Assembly: GCF_001639145.1 (NCBI RefSeq)
Contig: NZ_LROY01000001.1
Span: 188,501-252,500 of the forward strand
Length of the DNA: 64,000 bases
Origin: Microbulbifer sp. Q7
Lineage (GTDB): Bacteria; Pseudomonadota; Gammaproteobacteria; Pseudomonadales; Cellvibrionaceae
Reading direction: 5' to 3'
The notes beneath the pieces were generated by a model. The model worked only from the letters and a program-made list of their open reading frames with translations. It was not told where the DNA came from and made no database searches. This document shows, piece by piece, positions 42,908 to 50,881 of this stretch. The translations under genes were made by a program, and so were the position numbers. The number at the start of each line of letters is the position of its first letter. Position 1 is the stretch's first letter.

Positions 42908-43330
42908 CTAGAGTCCTGTTATTGAAAAATGATGGCTTTCAATATTGAATTTTTCCCTCAAGTAAAAGCGATGCGCCTGGAATCTTTGGACCCCAGAGTC
43001 TAGATGCACTTGGCTGCAACCAATTTCTTTCGCGTACTGTTTTATCCAATCAACCAGCAGCGCGCCCGCCCCGGATGACCTGTGACGTTCATCTGCTACG
43101 AGATCATCGATATAGATATGCTTGCCCCAGGCCAATTTCTGGCCGATCACAAAACCCGCTACGCACAAAATGTTCTCGCCCGATATAACATACGCAAGTC
43201 TATAGCCAGCCTCGCGCTGCAACTTGACTTGCACCTTAAGGCTATCCAGATCGTACTGCGGTCTCAGCTGCAAAAGAACCGCGCAAACCTCGTTCAATTC
43301 TTCATCTGACTCTAGCAAATTAACTTTCAT
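42908..43330 (-). CDS. GNAT family N-acetyltransferase
   Basis: A 140-residue GNAT fold protein. The acetyl-CoA-binding motif A lies in ADERHRSSGAGALLVDWI (about residues 79-96), preceded by the IYIDDLV strand; the C-terminal YLREKFNIESHHF resembles motif B. The ATG at 43330 is preferred to a GTG at 43354. Substrate unknown. GNATs are frequent in cassette arrays. It lies immediately left of the most degenerate attC-like site. Confidence 0.85.
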   Translation of the reverse strand: MKVNLLESDEELNEVCAVLLQLRPQYDLDSLKVQVKLQREAGYRLAYVISGENILCVAGFVIGQKLAWGKHIYIDDLVADERHRSSGAGALLVDWIKQYAKEIGCSQVHLDSGVQRFQAHRFYLREKFNIESHHFSITGL

Positions 43331-43342
43331 AGTTCCGATTTC

Positions 43343-43458
43343 GTAAAACGGCACTCAGGGGCGGCTTACTTTGGATGTACGATTGCGCGAAAATGGGAGC
43401 GAAACGACTGCGCAATTAAGTGACAAAGTAAGCCGTCGCTTTGCAGCATATTATTATG
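43343..43458 (-). repeat. attC-like site 1 (degenerate)
   Basis: The interior (GGGGCGGCTTAC, GCGCGAAAATGGGAGCG, paired with GTAAGCCGTCGC) matches attC sites 5-7. The ends are mutated: GTAAAAC at the left and TTATTATGG at the right in place of the TAAC/GTTA cores. It is the recombination site belonging to the RcsF-like cassette and overlaps that gene's stop codon. Probably inactive. Confidence 0.65.
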
Positions 43459-43828
43459 GCCCACTCTGTCGCTGAGGCACGGAGTATGCAACACCCCTGC
43501 ACTCCATATACTGATTGCACATTCCCGCAACAGCTTTGCCACACGCCTCAACTACGACGCCGTTACCCCCTAAACTGTGCGCCCTTACTTTTAGATCGTT
43601 TACCAAAGCACGTTTGCTCGGCTTTGGTTGATCTATACGCTCCTGGCAATATGATGCCTCAACAAAACCCAATGTAACCGCATCATACTTAGAAATTTCG
43701 GTGGGTGAATACTCCTCTACAGCCAAAGTTTTCACCCTATTTTTTGCATATGGACCAAAGTTTGTATTGAATGTCATGCCGCCACATGCAGTTACGAGCG
43801 CTGCGAAAATTACTATAAATATCTTCAT
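43454..43828 (-). CDS. RcsF-like outer-membrane lipoprotein (cassette gene)
   Basis: A 124-residue lipoprotein with the lipobox LVTAC (Cys15). The C-terminal half carries four cysteines spaced like those of E. coli RcsF (SYCQ, then EAC, GMC and MEC), which form two disulfides there. A conserved-looking core ALVNDLKVRAHSLGGNGVVV precedes the last three. RcsF senses envelope stress and signals to the Rcs phosphorelay; I see no rcs genes here, so the partner is unknown. Its 3' end lies in attC-like site 1. Confidence 0.82.
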   Translation of the reverse strand: MKIFIVIFAALVTACGGMTFNTNFGPYAKNRVKTLAVEEYSPTEISKYDAVTLGFVEASYCQERIDQPKPSKRALVNDLKVRAHSLGGNGVVVEACGKAVAGMCNQYMECRGVAYSVPQRQSGP

Positions 43829-43839
43829 TCTCAGGTCCT

Positions 43840-43959
43840 ACCTTACGCCCAGCGCAGGCGCAGCCGGCGCGGAGCGCATTTTGTGTTAATGTTTGAGCGC
43901 CAGCGAGTAACACAAAAGGTGCGTAGCGTCGGCTGTCGCCTTGCCGCTGCTTGTAATGA
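43840..43959 (-). repeat. attC-like site 2
   Basis: About 120 bases, nearly identical to sites 4 and 8 (GCGCAGGCGCAGCC, TTTTGTGTTAATGTTTGAGC, GAGTAACACAAAA). The terminal cores are altered (CCTTACG and TTGTAATG instead of TAACG and TTGTTA), so recombination may be impaired. It belongs to the Ada-like cassette. Confidence 0.8.
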
Positions 43960-43973
43960 ATTTTGCCCACCAC

Positions 43974-44249
43974 TTACGCCAAGGGCTCAGGATGCTCCTG
44001 GCTATCCTTCCATTTTTTGTACTCAGACTTCAGACAACGGCCGCAGGGTCGATACCCGGCTGCAATTGCGACAGATTCGCTAGCAAAGAAAACTCTGTGC
44101 TTTTCATAAATATTATTACCAAGCGCATTGTTGGCAGCCGTACAATTAAGCGTACCGTATATTTTTTCTCGAGAATTTCCGCCTAGCTGGCCTTTTTCAG
44201 TACTTTCATATATTTCGCCATCAGAATTCAATAGCTTATACAGCTTCAT
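43974..44249 (-). CDS. Ada-type zinc-binding domain protein (cassette gene)
   Basis: A 91-residue protein. The start at 44249 (MKLYKLLNSDGEIYESTEKG) has AAGGA upstream; the longer frame to 44387 would read through an attC. The region from GGNSREKIYGTLNCTAANN to RVFFASESVAIAAGYRPCGRCLKSEYKKW is the N-terminal domain of Ada, whose Cys residues bind zinc and in Ada accept methyl groups from DNA phosphotriesters. Three Cys are visible (NCTA, PCGRC). There is no methyltransferase or AraC domain, so the function is open. Confidence 0.8.
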   Translation of the reverse strand: MKLYKLLNSDGEIYESTEKGQLGGNSREKIYGTLNCTAANNALGNNIYEKHRVFFASESVAIAAGYRPCGRCLKSEYKKWKDSQEHPEPLA

Positions 44250-44263
44250 GCTTTTTCCTTGAT

Positions 44264-44407
44264 CCATAACGCCCGCAGCAGAGGCGACCAATGCTATGCA
44301 CATTTTGTGCGAAACTGGGAGCGTAGCGACCAGCACAAAAGTGTGCATAGCGTTGGGCGTCCCGCGTAGTGCCGAAGGCCCGGACAAACGGCTCGACTTT
44401 GTTAATT
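44264..44407 (-). repeat. attC site 3
   Basis: A 144-base site with intact-looking ends: CCATAAC at 44264-44270 and GTTAATT at 44401-44407. The interior has nested complementary segments (ATGCACATTTTGTGCGAAA and GCACAAAAGTGTGCAT). It belongs to the small membrane protein cassette at 44411-44743. Confidence 0.83.
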
Positions 44408-44410
44408 GAC

Positions 44411-44743
44411 TTACCTATGAAGAAAGCCGGCAAAGAATACGGTAGCGGTTAGAGCAAGAATTCCTGCTAGGACACCAAGAAAAAAACCTAGCATTCCACT
44501 TTTTTCTCTGTAGCGCCATAGTGCGGCAAAGAATACACCAATCCAAAATGGTGTCGATATAGCTGATTCAGGACGAATCTGCTCTCCATTAATTGAAGGT
44601 ATAAGGACACCAGAGAAAGTCACAAGTGCGAGCAGACCAAATACCTGATACCAAATCTTTTTCTTCGGCTTATTCGAAACTGAGTCACTTTGGATTTCTT
44701 TATCAGTTAATTCTGATTTTGGTGCCTTGTAAATTTCATTCAT
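44411..44743 (-). CDS. Small membrane protein, function unknown (cassette gene)
   Basis: A 110-residue protein. The start at 44743 has GGGGAG five bases upstream; the longer frame enters attC 4. The N-terminal cytoplasmic stretch begins MNEIYKAPKSEL, a YxAPxSEL-type opening seen in many small bacterial membrane proteins. Helices lie at about 38-54, 66-80 and 86-107. No enzymatic motif. The stop lies four bases right of the attC 3 core, a typical cassette layout. Confidence 0.75.
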   Translation of the reverse strand: MNEIYKAPKSELTDKEIQSDSVSNKPKKKIWYQVFGLLALVTFSGVLIPSINGEQIRPESAISTPFWIGVFFAALWRYREKSGMLGFFLGVLAGILALTATVFFAGFLHR

Positions 44744-44753
44744 TTCTGCTCCC

Positions 44754-44874
44754 CATTTAACGCCCAGCGCAGGCGCAGCCAGCGCGGAGCGCATTTTGTG
44801 TTAATGTTTGAGCGCCAGCGAGTAACACAAAAGGTGCGTAGCGTTGGCTGTCGCTCTGCCGCTGTTTGTTATGC
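44754..44874 (-). repeat. attC site 4
   Basis: A 121-base site with good ends: ATTTAAC at 44754-44760 and GTTATGC at 44868-44874. On the minus strand it reads GCATAAC ... GGGCGTTA, with VCR-like polarity. It is nearly identical to sites 2 and 8. The stop codon of the next gene to the right lies in its core. Confidence 0.88.
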
Positions 44875-45330
44875 ATTGTTCTGTGCTATGTGGTATTCAA
44901 GTATTTCAACGAGAGAATCTAGATTTACTGTACTAGTAGATATATACACTTTTCCATGTTTCCCGCCGCTGGCAACGACAGCCTCAATACCGTTACTACT
45001 AAAATACGACAGCTCTTTAATACAATTTAGCGGGATTGTATTTTTAAAAAACCAGTAGTTTCTACCTGAAATACATTCGTCAGTAATTGTAACGGAAGCC
45101 AATTTGAAGGATGCCGATACAACAAACGCGAAAAATAATGAAAAAACTGAAATCCCTAAGTACATAAGAGGAAGTTGTAGAAGGCTCACATGCCGAAATG
45201 TCTCTTCTACATCCATTCCTGTCTTGAAATAACGAACAATTAGTGCGAGCGTGACAGCCACCGAAATTGCTAGCGTCATGAACCTCGCAAGCTTTTTCCA
45301 TAACGCTTTCCAATTTACTGAATACTTCAT
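44869..45330 (-). CDS. Membrane protein with PH-like C-terminal domain, function unknown (cassette gene)
   Basis: A 153-residue protein. The start at 45330 (MKYSVNWKALWKKLARFM) has AGAGGGAG just upstream; an ATG at 45348 is the alternative. Two membrane helices lie at about 17-34 and 50-72. The C-terminal half (about 80-150) has short strands including VTITDECISGRNYWFFKNTI and KVYISTSTVNLDSLVEIL, reminiscent of bacterial PH-like domains (weak inference). The stop codon is inside the attC 4 core. Confidence 0.72.
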   Translation of the reverse strand: MKYSVNWKALWKKLARFMTLAISVAVTLALIVRYFKTGMDVEETFRHVSLLQLPLMYLGISVFSLFFAFVVSASFKLASVTITDECISGRNYWFFKNTIPLNCIKELSYFSSNGIEAVVASGGKHGKVYISTSTVNLDSLVEILEYHIAQNNA

Positions 45331-45342
45331 CGACTCCCTCTG

Positions 45343-45465
45343 ATGCATACGCCGCGCTCAGCCGCAGCTTACTTTATGCGCATTTTGCGCGAAAATGGGA
45401 GCGACAGCGACCGCGCAAAATGTGCATAAAGTAAGCTGTCGGTCTGCAGCGCCTTGTATGGTCTA
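45343..45465 (-). repeat. attC site 5, interrupted by the IS110 element
   Basis: Interior typical of the second attC type (CAGCTTACTTTATGCGC, GCGAAAATGGGAGCG, GCATAAAGTAAGCTG). The left core is CATACGCC. The right end reads GCGCCTTGTATGG, just before the IS. A second, better core (GCTTGTTATAC, ending about 46635) lies on the other side of the IS, suggesting that one attC was split. Confidence 0.72.
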
Positions 45466-45473
45466 ATTCCCCC

Positions 45474-45627
45474 GAATTCGGTAAGTTGAAGCCCGTAACA
45501 TCTCTCACCATGTTACCGGCTACCTAGCTCGATGCACGCCAGATCTCTAAAGATCGTCAACAAGCCTGAGCGGGTGGCCGACCCGATTTACAAACTCGAA
45601 CAGTCGAATGGGCTTCAAGCCCGAATT
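45474..45627 (+). ncRNA. Candidate bridge/seek RNA of the IS110 element
   Basis: A bipartite closing stem brackets the region: AATTCGG (from 45475) with CCGAATT (to 45627), then TTGAAGCCC (45486-45494) with GGGCTTCAA (45610-45618). Inside, GTAACA/TGTTAC forms a hairpin at 45495-45516, and further loops follow. Position directly upstream of an IS110-group transposase and size of about 155 nt fit known bridge RNAs. The segment AACAAGC at 45559-45565 is complementary to the conserved attC end GCTTGTT. Confidence 0.65.
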
Positions 45628-45630
45628 TAG

Positions 45631-46596
<966 letters not shown>

Positions 46597-46637
46597 TTAT
46601 TTTCTTGGGGTTGCAACCACAGTCGCTTGTTATACGC

Positions 46638-47000
46638 TTAACCACAATAAAAGACGTCCTGCAGTTTCATGGACTTATCAAAGTTAACGTATACGCAGCC
46701 ATCCATGATGTCGCCATCAAGTAACGCTGATTTTCGTAGCTGAAGAAAACTGTAACTTCTGAATCTTACCGATACCCCACTGTCACTTTCTATTATTTTG
46801 AATGGATAGTAACCGAAAGGGACTTCGGATGATTTACCTAGCTCGGCGTATGCTTTATTTAGAATAGCTCGATCATCTTCAGACCAATTTATTGCCCCGT
46901 ACTTCGGCTCAGCAAGAGCCAGATCTTTGACCGCAAAGAATCCAACCCCGAGTGATCCACATAGTAATAAAGCTAAAATTATGATTATTGCGTTTTTCAT
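46638..47000 (-). CDS. Secreted or membrane-anchored protein, function unknown (cassette gene)
   Basis: A 120-residue protein. The start at 47000 (MKNAIIIILALLLCGSLGVG) follows an attC; the longer frame to 47096 reads through that site and is rejected. A hydrophobic N-terminal helix (about 3-24) is either a signal anchor or an uncleaved signal peptide. The rest (SEDDRAILNKAYAELGKS; SVRFRSYSFLQL; LLDGDIMDGCVYVNF) resembles no family I know. Two Cys near the C-terminus could pair. The stop lies two bases from the GTTATAC core beside the IS. Confidence 0.7.
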   Translation of the reverse strand: MKNAIIIILALLLCGSLGVGFFAVKDLALAEPKYGAINWSEDDRAILNKAYAELGKSSEVPFGYYPFKIIESDSGVSVRFRSYSFLQLRKSALLDGDIMDGCVYVNFDKSMKLQDVFYCG

Positions 47001-47012
47001 ACTCGATTGTGC

Positions 47013-47157
47013 GTATAACGCCCACAGCAGGGGCGGCTTACCTTGTGCGCCTTTTGCGCGAAAATGGGAGCGTAGCGACCCGCGCAAAAGGCGCACAAGA
47101 TAAGACGTCCCGCGGAGACCCGAAGGGCCGTAGCTTTACTGCCTGTGTTTGTTAGAT
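47013..47157 (-). repeat. attC site 6
   Basis: A 145-base site with ends GTATAAC (47013-47019) and GTTAGAT (47151-47157). It is of the second interior type (GGGGCGGCTTACCTTGTGCG, GCGCGAAAATGGGAGCG, CGCACAAGATAAGACGTCCC). The last residues of the coiled-coil protein to its right are encoded inside it. Confidence 0.88.
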
Positions 47158-47621
47158 TTTGTTTGCACCAGGCCTGGGGCTCCTCCCGATACTACTTTCG
47201 TTTTAATTTTCCTAATTCCGGACAATCTATTTACCAGCTCATCTTCCAGGTAAGATATTCTATTTATTACCTGAGTAGAATTTTTGCAATCGTTATTTTT
47301 GAGGCACTCTCTTAACAATTGAATTGCCTTCTCAATCTTAGGCTTTGAACTGTTACGAGAGACGTATTTATTTTTTAAATATTTTTCTGCAGGATGCTCA
47401 GGCTCTCGCCAAATCTTGTTAAGCTCTCTCTTTAGGGGCTTCAACTCCCCTCTCAAATTAGCCTTTTCGCTTTTCAAAGAATGAATTTCATTCTCAAGCT
47501 CTTCCTTGCGAATACTAGAAAGCCTTTTTGACCTTGATAAAAATGATTTTTTCCCATTAATTTCTTTTGATAAAATTTTTAGCCGCTCTTGGATAGCCTT
47601 AATTTCAGTTTCGATGCTCAT
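47136..47621 (-). CDS. Coiled-coil protein, function unknown (cassette gene)
   Basis: A 161-residue Lys/Glu-rich protein, predicted to be almost wholly helical. Coiled coils lie at about residues 2-72 (heptads in IQERLKILSKEI and LENEIHSLKSEKANLRGEL) and 95-140. No signal peptide, membrane helix or catalytic motif. The last five or so residues (NKHRQ) and the stop come from attC 6, so its C-terminus was set by the recombination site. AT-rich codons contrast with the core genes. Confidence 0.75.
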   Translation of the reverse strand: MSIETEIKAIQERLKILSKEINGKKSFLSRSKRLSSIRKEELENEIHSLKSEKANLRGELKPLKRELNKIWREPEHPAEKYLKNKYVSRNSSKPKIEKAIQLLRECLKNNDCKNSTQVINRISYLEDELVNRLSGIRKIKTKVVSGGAPGLVQTKSNKHRQ

Positions 47622-47626
47622 ACTAA

Positions 47627-47770
47627 ATCTAACGCCGCCGGCAGGGGCAGCTTACCTTGTGCGCGTTTTGCGCGAAAATGGGAGCGCAGCGACCCGCGCA
47701 AAACGTGCACAAGGTAAGCTGTCCCGCGGAGGGCCGCAGGCCCGGAGCGAATTGCCCGGCCTTGTTAATG
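47627..47770 (-). repeat. attC site 7
   Basis: A 144-base site with ends ATCTAAC (47627-47633) and GTTAATG (47764-47770), of the second interior type, close to site 6 (GCAGCTTACCTTGTGCGCG paired with GCACAAGGTAAGCTG). Confidence 0.88.
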
Positions 47771-48082
47771 TTTGATGACCTGAAAGTGATTTAACACTGA
47801 CAAGGCTACCAAACTCAACGCCCTCGAATTACCAACATACTGCGAGCGGCACGATTGGCTGTACCACGCCACGCTTTCCCTGGAGCGGCTTACACGCCCA
47901 AAAGGAAAACCCCACTCTCTTTCTTCCGCCGCCAGTGAAAACCTTAACGAAGGGAAACCACTGGAGGCTTTCTATATCAACCGTAAATCCCTGCTAGCGA
48001 TACCACTTTTACAACGCTAGAGGTCGCCGAATCGCTCATCAAGCACACCGAAATTTTTAGGCGGCGGCATGATGGACCTGAA
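47771..48082 (-). other. Cassette without an obvious gene
   Basis: A 312-base unit between attC 7 and attC 8. No start-to-stop frame of useful length is seen on the minus strand, where all other cassette genes lie. On the plus strand a frame of 76 codons is open from 47790 to the TAG at 48018-48020, but it lacks ATG or GTG starts. It may be a regulatory or RNA cassette, or a decayed one. Confidence 0.6.
47790..48020 (+). pseudogene. Possible gene remnant in the ORF-less cassette
   Basis: A 76-codon open frame on the strand opposite to the other cassettes. Its composition looks protein-like (KATKLNALELPTYCERHDWL ... LEAFYINRKSLLAIPLLQR). It begins right after an in-frame TGA and has no usual start codon. 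I recognise no family. It could be the truncated tail of a gene inserted in reverse, or chance. Confidence 0.3.
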
Positions 48083-48201
48083 CATTAACGCCCAGCGCAG
48101 GCGCAGCCAGCGCGGAGTATTTTTTGTGTTAATGTTTGAGCGCAGCGAGTAACACAAAAAATGCGTAGCGTTGGCTGTCGCTCTGCCGCTGCTTGTTAGG
48201 C
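48083..48201 (-). repeat. attC site 8
   Basis: A 119-base site with ends CATTAAC (48083-48089) and GTTAGGC (48195-48201), of the first interior type (as sites 2 and 4). It belongs to the CBM9-like cassette, the first of the array. Confidence 0.88.
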
Positions 48202-48240
48202 TGCGGACTCCGCAGGACCCACTTAAGTTACTTAGATATA

Positions 48241-48864
48241 CTATTCAGAGAAAGAAAACTGTGCCCAACTAGTTGGGTCCGTAGATACCGCATTCTTCGG
48301 ATATAAGAACTCAGCCCGCTCACCTTCTTGGTAAATAGCGCTTATACCGAACATCATATTCCAAATATTGCCAGGAAATTTATTACGCGAGACTTGAACC
48401 TGCCTGTGCGTTCCTTTGGCCCATATGGGACCTTTTCGGTTTTCCGGCTCCTCAAGCCCAGAAAATGGCACCCAGAATCCAGCATAATTTTTAAGATCCC
48501 ATTTTCCAGAAACTCTCTCCCACCCATTTTCCGTGAGTACTTTTTCACCCATTTGAGCTGAGAGGTGAAATTTGTGAAGACGGTTAGTTTCTGGATTTTC
48601 TATGTACAGATCTAAGACTGTGATGTCTTCTTCTTTAGCTCTAGCGCATATATAGAAATAATTGTCATCTTTCATTAGATAGATAGCAACTTGCGCTGGC
48701 AATTCCAATTTTGTTGCCACATCCCATTCATCATTCCCGCAACGGCCATCTAGTAGCGCCGACTTACCTGTTGAGTTGATGGAAATTGCCGCAGAAGCAT
48801 TGGAGGAAATATAGAAAAAAATAAGTACAGCACCTAGAGAAAGTAGTTTCGAAATTTTATTCAT
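48241..48864 (-). CDS. Secreted CBM9/DOMON-like protein (first cassette gene)
   Basis: A 207-residue precursor with a signal peptide (about 1-25, LLSLGAVLIFFYISSNASA). The mature part begins INSTGKSALLDGRCGNDEWD, the typical opening of the family 9 carbohydrate-binding-like (DOMON) fold, where a conserved Asp/Trp/Glu follows LDG. Strands VAIYLMKDDNYFYICARAKE and VLDLYIENPE fit. Ligand unknown; sugar binding is plausible but unproven. It lies at the attI-proximal end of the array, the position expected of the latest acquisition. Confidence 0.68.
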   Translation of the reverse strand: MNKISKLLSLGAVLIFFYISSNASAAISINSTGKSALLDGRCGNDEWDVATKLELPAQVAIYLMKDDNYFYICARAKEEDITVLDLYIENPETNRLHKFHLSAQMGEKVLTENGWERVSGKWDLKNYAGFWVPFSGLEEPENRKGPIWAKGTHRQVQVSRNKFPGNIWNMMFGISAIYQEGERAEFLYPKNAVSTDPTSWAQFSFSE

Positions 48865-48891
48865 ATTAATCCTCGCAGATACGGTTTCTAA

Positions 48892-48899
48892 GCCTAACA
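48892..48899 (-). other. Right boundary core site of the cassette array (attI-like)
   Basis: GCCTAAC on the plus strand, that is GTTAGGC on the minus strand, upstream of the first cassette gene. It matches the attC 8 core. No attC palindrome is attached, as expected of an attI-type junction. Confidence 0.5.
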
Positions 48900-48917
48900 G
48901 TTTTATTCAAAAGCCCC

Positions 48918-49023
48918 AGATATAGACATTATGTCTACATCTGGGCATGACATGTCTATATGTGACCATAATGGCTAAATATAGCCATTTCTCATGGCCG
49001 GCTATATGTCTACATCTAGGCAT
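48918..49023. promoter_or_regulatory. Palindrome and direct-repeat cluster beside the array
   Basis: Contains a 25-base imperfect palindrome (48918-48942), GACATGTC (48949-48956) and an inverted repeat ATGGCTA/TAGCCAT (48971-48988). A 19-base direct repeat TATGTCTACATCTRGGCAT at 48930-48948 and 49005-49023 differs at one base; its second copy overlaps the end of the adjoining gene. Repeated ATGTCTA/TAGACAT units suggest a protein-binding region or attI-like site. Confidence 0.45.
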
Positions 49024-49388
49024 TGGTCAATCAGGCCTTCGACGATTCTGTGACCCATGTTTCTATGCTCTGCCATGCTGCGCTTTACTACCCAGGCTTT
49101 GGCGACTCTGCTCCAGCGACCACCGATTTTCCGGGCTTCGGCGCGTAAATCGACTTCGTCGTAGGAGATCTTCAGTGCCACCCATTCACTTTTGTGCGGC
49201 ATGACCTGAGGTCTCGTATTTTTATGCCGATAGGCTTCTCTTTGTGCGACGATAATTTCTACGGTGGTGTAGACGGTGTTTTTGCACGGGGATCGTCGGT
49301 ATCGAACGGCGCATAGTTGATCGCCGTATTTATCGTGATAGCGCTTGCTGCCATCATCGCCCGGCCGGATTGTTTTTATAATTTCCAT
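49002..49388 (-). CDS. Conserved hypothetical protein
   Basis: A 128-residue cytoplasmic protein. The start at 49388 (MEIIKTIRPGDDGSKRYHDK) has a perfect AAGGAGG six bases upstream; the frame to 49439 would overlap ubiD and is rejected. Basic and strand-rich (LCAVRYRRSPCKNTVYTTVE), then WVALKISYDEVDLRAEARKI and a tail with RWSRVAKAWVVKR. I have the impression of a widespread uncharacterised family but cannot name it. It sits between ubiD and the cassette array on the same strand, and its C-terminal codons contain one copy of a 19-base repeat. Confidence 0.75.
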   Translation of the reverse strand: MEIIKTIRPGDDGSKRYHDKYGDQLCAVRYRRSPCKNTVYTTVEIIVAQREAYRHKNTRPQVMPHKSEWVALKISYDEVDLRAEARKIGGRWSRVAKAWVVKRSMAEHRNMGHRIVEGLIDQCLDVDI

Positions 49389-49417: not shown

Positions 49418-50881
49418 CTACAGACCCAGCTCGTCCCACATGTCATCGATTTTTTGTGTGACTTCGGGATCTTTTACGATTGGTCGCCCCCACTCCCGGG
49501 TGGTTTCGCCTTCCCATTTATTGGTCGCGTCGAAACCGATCTTCGAGCCCAGCCCTGATACCGGTGAGGCGAAGTCGAGATAATCGATCGGGGTGTTCTC
49601 GACCATTACCGTGTCGCGGGCGGGGTCCATTCTGGTGGTCATGGCCCAGATGACGTCGTTCCAGTCCCGCGCGTTGACGTCATCATCGGTGACGATCACA
49701 AACTTGGTGTACATGAATTGGCGCAGAAAAGACCAGACGCCCATCATGACCCGCTTGGCATGTCCCGGGTACTGCTTCTTCATGGTGACCACGGCGAGGC
49801 GGTAGGAACAGCCTTCTGGCGGCAGGTAGAAATCGACAATTTCCGGAAATTGCTTGCGCAATATGGGTACGAAGACTTCATTCAGGGCCTCACCCAATAC
49901 CGCCGGCTCATCCGGTGGGCGGCCGGTGTAGGTGCTGTGGTAAATGGGGTCTTTGCGGTGGGTGATTTTTTCCACAGTGAATACGGGAAAGCTATCTATC
50001 TCGTTGTAATAGCCGGTGTGGTCGCCGTAGGGTCCCTCGTCGGCCATGTCGTCCGGGTAGATATAGCCTTCCAGTACGTACTCGGCACTGGCGGGAACCT
50101 GCAGGTTGCTGAGCCGGGCTTCTGCCACTTCTGTTTTCCCGCCCCGCAGTAGGCCCGCAAAGGCGTATTCGGAAAGGGTATCCGGCACCGGGGTGACCGC
50201 ACCGAGAATAGTGGCCGGGTCGGCACCAAGAGCGACAGCAACCGGGAAGGGCTCGCCGGGGAATTGCTGTTGCCATTCACGGAAGTCCAGCGCACCGCCC
50301 CGGTGGGATAGCCAGCGCATGATCAGGCGGTTTTGCCCGATCAACTGCATGCGGTAGATACCGAGGTTCTGACGCTTCTTCTCCGGCCCCCGGGTAATCA
50401 CCAGGGGCCAGGTGACGAGGGGCGCGGCATCACCGGGCCAACAGGTCTGAATGGGGAGCTTGGTCAGGTCAACGTCGCCGGCGTTGATTTCAAACTGCTG
50501 GCAGTCGGCCTTGCTGATGACCTTGGGGCCCATGTTCATTACTTGCTTGAAGATGGGTAGCTTGTCCCAGGCATCACGGAGACCCTCAGGGGGCTGTGGC
50601 TCCTTCAGGAAGGCGAGCAACTCACCTACCTCGCGTAGCTCGCTGACGGACTCCCGCCCCATGCCCAGGGCGACACGCTCGGGGGTTCCAAACAGGTTGG
50701 CGAGTACGGGGGTGTCATATCCGGTGGGGTTTTCAAACAACAGTGCTGGGCCACCGGCGCGTAGCACGCGGTCGGCAATTTCTGTCATTTCCAGGTAGGG
50801 ACTGACGGGATGTTTTATGCGTTTGAGGAGGCCGCGCTTTTCCAATAGCTGGATGAAGTCGCGCAGGTCTTTGTATTTCAT
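49418..50881 (-). CDS. ubiD: 4-Hydroxy-3-polyprenylbenzoate decarboxylase
   Basis: Prenylated-FMN-dependent decarboxylase of ubiquinone synthesis, 487 residues. The N-terminus [20 protein letters not shown] is canonical. Metal and prFMN site residues are in the LGIYRMQ and [12 protein letters not shown] segments (about 175-200) and the catalytic Glu-Arg-Glu region ([11 protein letters not shown] near 285). It lies near rho-trxA as in Pseudomonas. The UbiX flavin prenyltransferase is not in the window. Confidence 0.97.

Follow-up and report, generated by a model that had tools for sequence, protein, structure and literature searches.

The 64,000-nt window analysed here, from Microbulbifer sp. 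Q7 (assembly GCF_001639145.1, contig NZ_LROY01000001.1; genome of 3.95 Mb in two contigs), contains at positions 43343-48898 an attC cassette array of eight attC sites and eight cassettes, read on the minus strand and located behind the core gene ubiD and a small gene that is termed X here. Unprefixed coordinates are positions in the window. It is likely that this array is a satellite of a dispersed chromosomal integron, in which one integron integrase (IntI) would serve several dedicated attI platforms in trans, each growing its own array. This reading is based, by sequence, on folded attC sites, an attI-type core at the head of every multi-attC cluster of this genome, recurrent chromosomal positions in other species, a switch of content at G^TT, cassettes common to some of the arrays and the lack of any intI remnant next to the remote sites.

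Organisation of the cassette array

The attC sites are imperfect inverted repeats of 117-132 nt on the minus strand (n = 8). In single-stranded folding, all eight outperformed nearly all dinucleotide shuffles (z -2.4 to -8.3; 0-4 of 200 shuffles equally good), and an alignment of 12 sites, five of the eight from the window and seven from the main array, contains 32 pairs; for 18 of them, at least one sequence has both partners changed with the pairing preserved. The sites have R''-type boxes and G^TT ends. The conserved hairpin with compensatory changes and the R boxes expected of attC sites were thus found, as were box pairs. The attC model used for further searches was built from these eight sites, and its matches to them are by construction. 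An Rfam scan returned only microRNA and long non-coding RNA matches, all below gathering scores. Seven of the eight cassettes carry a small gene, cassette 2 having no minus-strand open reading frame (ORF) of at least 50 aa. The seven genes have a G+C content of 37-46%, compared to 57-63% for ubiD, rho and hemY, and only one of them (cassette 7, with an Ada-type metal-binding domain) passed a Pfam cut-off.

These data bear out much of the initial annotation, made from the sequence alone. It had described eight long palindromic attC-type sites between small minus-strand genes, and repeats, folding and paired changes demonstrate that these fill 43343..48898 exactly; the polarity and boxes assigned to the sites, the AT-rich genes beside a GC-rich core and the cargo of mostly unassigned small proteins were likewise confirmed. 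Its statement that no IntI-type recombinase is encoded in the 64 kb was also correct, as no IntI-like match was found in the window, but the label 'without an integrase' is misleading for the genome, which encodes a full-length IntI on the other contig. The interpretation as a real attC cassette array stood, while the attI-type start at 48892-48908, X, the leader and an IS110-family insertion sequence (IS) inside an attC site had been missed. The features are, in the reading direction of the array:

49418..50881, minus strand: ubiD, the core gene preceding X and the site (NF008175, 943 bits, cut-off 788)
49002..49388, minus strand: gene X, 128 aa, lying after ubiD and before the array head; nothing over cut-off in Pfam or NCBIfam
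48909..49001, minus strand: palindromic leader between X and the core
48892..48908, minus strand: attI-type core GAATAAAACTG^TTAGGC, with the crossover inferred between 48898 and 48897
48241..48864, minus strand: cassette 1 gene, 207 aa, no Pfam match
48085..48201, minus strand: cassette 1 attC (inverted repeat, folding, model, pair alignment)
47770..48084, minus strand: cassette 2 body, no minus-strand ORF of at least 50 aa
47629..47760, minus strand: cassette 2 attC (inverted repeat, folding, model)
47136..47621, minus strand: cassette 3 gene, 161 aa, weak coiled-coil-like matches only
47015..47146, minus strand: cassette 3 attC (inverted repeat, folding, model)
46638..47000, minus strand: cassette 4 gene, 120 aa, no Pfam match
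46624..46635, minus strand: R'' piece of the cassette 4 attC, severed by the IS element
45646..46596, plus strand: IS110-family transposase gene in the cassette 4 attC (NF033542, 200 bits, cut-off 140; Pfam)
45346..45462, minus strand: remainder of the cassette 4 attC (inverted repeat, folding, model)
44869..45348, minus strand: cassette 5 gene, 159 aa, no family assigned
44757..44874, minus strand: cassette 5 attC (inverted repeat, folding, model, pair alignment)
44411..44740, minus strand: cassette 6 gene, 109 aa, no family assigned
44266..44397, minus strand: cassette 6 attC (inverted repeat, folding, model)
43974..44249, minus strand: cassette 7 gene, 91 aa, Ada-type metal-binding domain (PF02805, 27.8 bits, cut-off 23)
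43842..43959, minus strand: cassette 7 attC (inverted repeat, folding, model, pair alignment)
43454..43828, minus strand: cassette 8 gene, 124 aa, weak similarity to RcsF/DUF4156 that stays below cut-off
43343..43459, minus strand: cassette 8 attC and array end, followed by a GNAT gene (42911-43330)

One integrase and several arrays headed by a common core

A search of the complete genome for intI and further attC sites, as the initial annotation had proposed, returned one IntI and further arrays with the same attC type. The single IntI over the curated cut-off (TIGR02249, 420.8 bits, cut-off 265) is encoded at C2:386809-387750, on the other contig than the window. It aligns to Vibrio IntI4 (2a3v) over residues 14-326, almost from end to end, and the HxxR, H and Y motifs can be read from the alignment. 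Outside the window, matches to the attC model cluster at C2:388-403 kb (beside intI), C2:259-267 kb, C2:469-482 kb and C1:1159-1162 kb, with a lone match at C2:1216 kb. The attC counts for this genome are lower bounds, 150 of 617 first-look candidates having been scored; for relatives G021 and G018 the scored candidates were 150 of 498 and 150 of 618, respectively. Two more integrase lineages occur in the genus, approximately 42-47% identical to this IntI and with their own attI cores (L172-L181).

The sequence TGAATAAAACTG^TTA heads all five clusters with at least two attC sites in this genome. At four of these heads a co-directional gene lies upstream, namely ubiD followed by X (window), parE, sucD (succinate-CoA ligase alpha) and class I fumarase, and the fifth head is the attI of intI. 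A sixth core, behind a hipA-like gene, passes the cassette box test, in which a cassette start box is found together with its reverse complement within 1.5 kb. All four multi-attC clusters in G021 and all four in G018 are headed by the intI attI or a remote site, two of these heads having variant cores (one a variant core, the other an attI belonging to a second integrase lineage). Of the single attC matches, three of four in G021 and two of four in G018 have a core at their head, which the only one in this genome lacks.

Across the genus, the pattern GAATAAA(N)CTGTTA was found in 35 of 48 genomes, with 154 occurrences (our own sum) versus 6 for the reversed pattern. We fetched 66 sites, comprising all six of this genome and 60 from 13 relatives (all pattern finds in 12 of them and one of six in G040); nine lie beside intI and 57 are remote. 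Box pairs were present at 50 of the 57 remote sites (1.3 expected) and eight of the nine intI sites, and by our tally an attC site at E <= 1e-6 lies within ~1.5 kb of 37 of 52 remote sites in relatives and four of five in this genome. The same upstream genes recur at the remote sites: ubiD-X, fumarase and the hipA-like gene in seven genomes each, parE and sucD in five each, and acnB (aconitase B) in two, the remaining sites having an upstream gene that was seen once only or none identified. Where the core gene was identified, it ends 85-577 bp before the site (up to 516 bp with X in between). Genes of the tricarboxylic acid cycle (fumarase, sucD and aconitases) precede several of the remote sites in G000 and relatives.

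Turnover of cassettes behind conserved sites

Comparison with G029, the nearest relative, which was taken as M. salipaludis, placed the boundary between conserved and variable sequence at the core. Up to CTG, identity over 60 positions is 57 at ubiD, 59 at parE and 60 at hipA, fumarase and sucD, and after TTA it is 20, 24, 8, 18 and 21 at ubiD, parE, hipA, fumarase and sucD, respectively, with approximately 15 expected by chance; local alignments stop 3-13 bases beyond the G. Identity collapses at G^TT at all five sites, so the split of the two species has been followed by a change of content at every remote site, located where it would be expected. A fixed and conserved order of genes, which the initial annotation had named as an observation that would speak against a cassette array, was not encountered, as different species hold different cassettes at one and the same position.

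Cassettes are also shared between arrays of this genome. The intI and fumarase arrays have one complete cassette in common (601 nt, 98.7%) and a further 529 nt at 94.3%, and the intI and sucD arrays share 636 nt at 95.0%, including the same ORF; the neighbours of these common cassettes differ among the three arrays. In the window, the ORF-less cassette 2 and the cassette that opens the intI array are 74.7% alike over 471 nt, attC counted in.

In the most likely mechanism, IntI produced from a single locus would act in trans and recombine excised cassettes into any of the sites, with new cassettes entering at the head of the local array. The window array would have grown in this way behind ubiD and X, through crossover between 48898 and 48897.

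Leaders and the origin of the sites

The window leader (stretch 48895-49004) folds better than 200 of 200 shuffles (z -5.3), and a similar palindromic leader is found behind other X genes. Two near-identical 19-nt direct repeats (TATGTCTACATCTGGGCAT) lie at 48930-49023. The leaders at the fumarase and sucD sites resemble the intI attI; in G021 the likeness between the sucD site and the attI of intI extends over ~240 nt, after which the two part abruptly. Among 38 leaders of this attI-like kind, similarity is 0.624 between different loci of one genome, 0.586 for the same locus in different genomes and 0.475 for other pairs, the same-genome value being reached by 0 of 2000 label shuffles, in which kinship is ignored. 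We infer an origin of the extra sites by copying of attI, which is well supported for the one pair in G021; copying of the attI region would probably have taken place without intI, and the sites would then have stayed put.

The other integrase lineages of the genus have different attI cores. In G046 the ubiD core is that of its second integrase over 17 bases, and in G001 the ubiD core resembles the core of a resident integrase.

Gene X, a protein linked to the site

Matches to X were found in 26 of 48 genus genomes, two of which have fragments or broken copies only. The closest X outside the window is that of M. salipaludis, and the named records with X are Microbulbifer. ubiD adjoins X in 21 of 24 genus loci. 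X was seen without ubiD in the fetched flank at L059 (G041:C32), L046 (G017) and L057 (G013), and in G041 a decayed X is also present behind ubiD, as if X had relocated. The box test was passed by 23 of 25 genus X loci. In 23 further genomes, ubiD was found without an intact X alongside, and the 24 stretches behind it yielded neither an attC at E <= 0.001 nor a box pair (0 of 24; 1.7 expected), with a decayed X in two of these loci and one or two leader-like remnants recognised by eye. The motif YAKATMTR, which was picked by eye, occurs 68 times in 41 X leaders, where mononucleotide shuffles predict 2.3.

A search of 293 genomes outside the genus detected X in 16, following gltX in one family and lying close to parE in a sister genus; tRNA-Ala and tRNA-Glu lie in between in four of the gltX-type loci scanned for tRNA. 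At L199, L202, L203 and L204, X directly follows gltX, tRNA-Ala and tRNA-Glu, a position like those used by integrating elements. Nine of these 16 loci passed the box test, two of them also with a stop in X, bringing all X loci to 32 of 41 (2.1 expected); of the seven misses, three run into a contig end, in three X is broken or truncated, and the last is from a genome that has no IntI match. An IntI over cut-off is encoded in 13 of the 16 genomes, and an IntI-like match was found in 0 of 32 X stretches (449 kb) versus 20 of 20 intI control loci. X homologues in other families of the order also mostly precede IntI-less cassettes. Assignment of X to DUF5710 was rejected (16.7 bits, gathering cut-off 26.5; four of 30 members match at E <= 0.1), and its predicted model has two small domains with no fold identified.

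Judged by its linkage, X most likely binds the leader, and it may control integration into the array or its expression. A more speculative proposal, which we put forward as possible though rather doubtful, is that X, leader and attI-type core together form a stand-alone, integrase-less cassette platform that moved between core-gene tails and uses the IntI of its host. X would then be the dedicated protein of the platform, binding the leader and directing how cassettes are integrated or expressed. The tails in question are that of ubiD in most Microbulbifer loci, that of gltX (with tRNA-Ala and tRNA-Glu) in another family and the vicinity of parE in the sister genus. If this were true, integrons would be divisible into integrase modules and platform modules, and X would be a candidate for a protein that goes with the platform rather than with the integrase.

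IS110 elements inside attC sites

An IS110 element interrupts the attC of cassette 4, and the site at 45346 is the rest of that attC. Copies occupy the identical attC point in four arrays of the genome, in the window and three others (45646-46596; L032:9901-10851; L065:12826-13773; L066:16658-17605), with transposases that are 99.7% identical and belong to a family named RNA-guided in NCBIfam. The fumarase array has two further IS110-type transposases, 81% and 43% identical (L066:18823-19668 and L067:285-1193). The element here is like the IS1111-attC group of insertion sequences in its insertion at one fixed attC point, in four copies.

Alternative explanations

On the usual view of clusters of attC sites lacking integron-integrases (CALINs), each remote array would once have had its own intI and later lost it. 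Several genus genomes do contain two or three integrase matches each, some of them truncated or with stop codons. However, the remote arrays lack the appearance of integrons in decay: an IntI-like match within 2.5 kb upstream was found at 0 of 57 remote sites versus 9 of 9 intI sites, the core gene ending 85-577 bp before the site occupies the place expected for intI, and the contents differ at five of five sites between two close species, and therefore the sites were used recently. Decay is thus an unlikely origin of these arrays. It is very unlikely that IntI placed the cassettes in chance attG-type chromosomal targets, although the relevant passage of PMC8618304 lists, among the origins of CALINs, an IntI that is encoded elsewhere and inserts off target, and attG insertion is known experimentally from work cited in an excerpt of PMC12901181. 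The sites have at least 12 core bases and longer leaders in common with attI (~240 nt in one pair), whereas that excerpt describes attG sites as diverging from classical sites (PMC12901181), and the positions recur across species. The least likely origin is rearrangement, in which IS110 or attC x attC recombination would have carried parts of the main array to other places. Nearly identical IS110 copies do sit in four arrays, but the four aligned copies lie inside attC and none at an array head, and random moves would not yield the constant polarity away from a core site behind a core gene.

Several observations nevertheless weigh against a dispersed integron that one IntI would serve in trans. 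The core pattern was absent from 13 of the 48 genus genomes, seven of 57 remote sites failed the box test, and no attC at E <= 1e-6 lies within ~1.5 kb of 15 of 52 remote sites in relatives or, as a strong attC, of the hipA-like site of this genome. Most ubiD, parE and hipA sites carry quasi-palindromes and are like the intI attI only in the vicinity of the core, and their leaders have no significant same-genome excess (0.058). Nor do the ubiD core and the resident integrase always correspond: G037 has these cores, yet the integrases found in it belong to other lineages, and in G021 the core is IntI-b-like while the integrase of that type is missing. Cassette 2, at 74.7%, is the only cassette of the window array in common with another array, and shared cassettes could represent two independent captures from outside.

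Comparison with known systems

CALINs are as common as complete integrons (2961 versus 2760, in the counts given in an excerpt of PMC9024848) and, in the excerpts at hand, are usually read as leftovers or accidents. The published origins at hand are off-target insertion, intI loss and rearrangement; dedicated extra attI sites served in trans are absent from these. Descriptions of integron tools, in the portions at hand, state that attI outside class 1 integrons is not detected. In the openly licensed literature we found no report of one integrase serving several attI sites, and no paper combining Microbulbifer, integron and attC. If some CALINs are live arrays with a dedicated extra attI each, a single integrase can operate multiple stores of cassettes, each in its own chromosomal context. 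Orthologous docking sites are available in many species with variable cassettes, making integration in trans directly testable.

The window array has eight attC sites, where a CALIN calls for at least two, and like other CALINs it has no intI nearby and an IntI elsewhere in the genome, here on the other contig; intI adjacent to attI, the mark of a complete integron, is absent at this locus. It differs in its conserved attI-type head, its fixed position behind a core gene, the linked X and its recent turnover, and a check against the proposed CALIN origins found attI-like heads and no intI remnants. Loot et al. (2024) reportedly described attG sites, at which IntI in trans inserts cassettes away from the integron. 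This attG work is cited in excerpts of PMC12901181 and PMC11023631. The sites here would be alike in IntI-driven cassette insertion in trans, away from the integron, but attG sites are described as divergent from attI, whereas those described here resemble attI and are conserved. The window site was not classed as attG, which would have little attI similarity, as it has core and leader in common with attI. The CALINs of Xanthomonas also recur at the same loci across species, but are read as ancestral activity, and no attI-type heads are reported for them in the part of PMC12444791 at hand. There is also a likeness to sedentary chromosomal integrons of the Vibrio type, with host-type attC sites, mostly uncharacterised small genes and intI, attI and array together at the main locus; the Microbulbifer system differs from these in having several attI-type sites and arrays per integrase.

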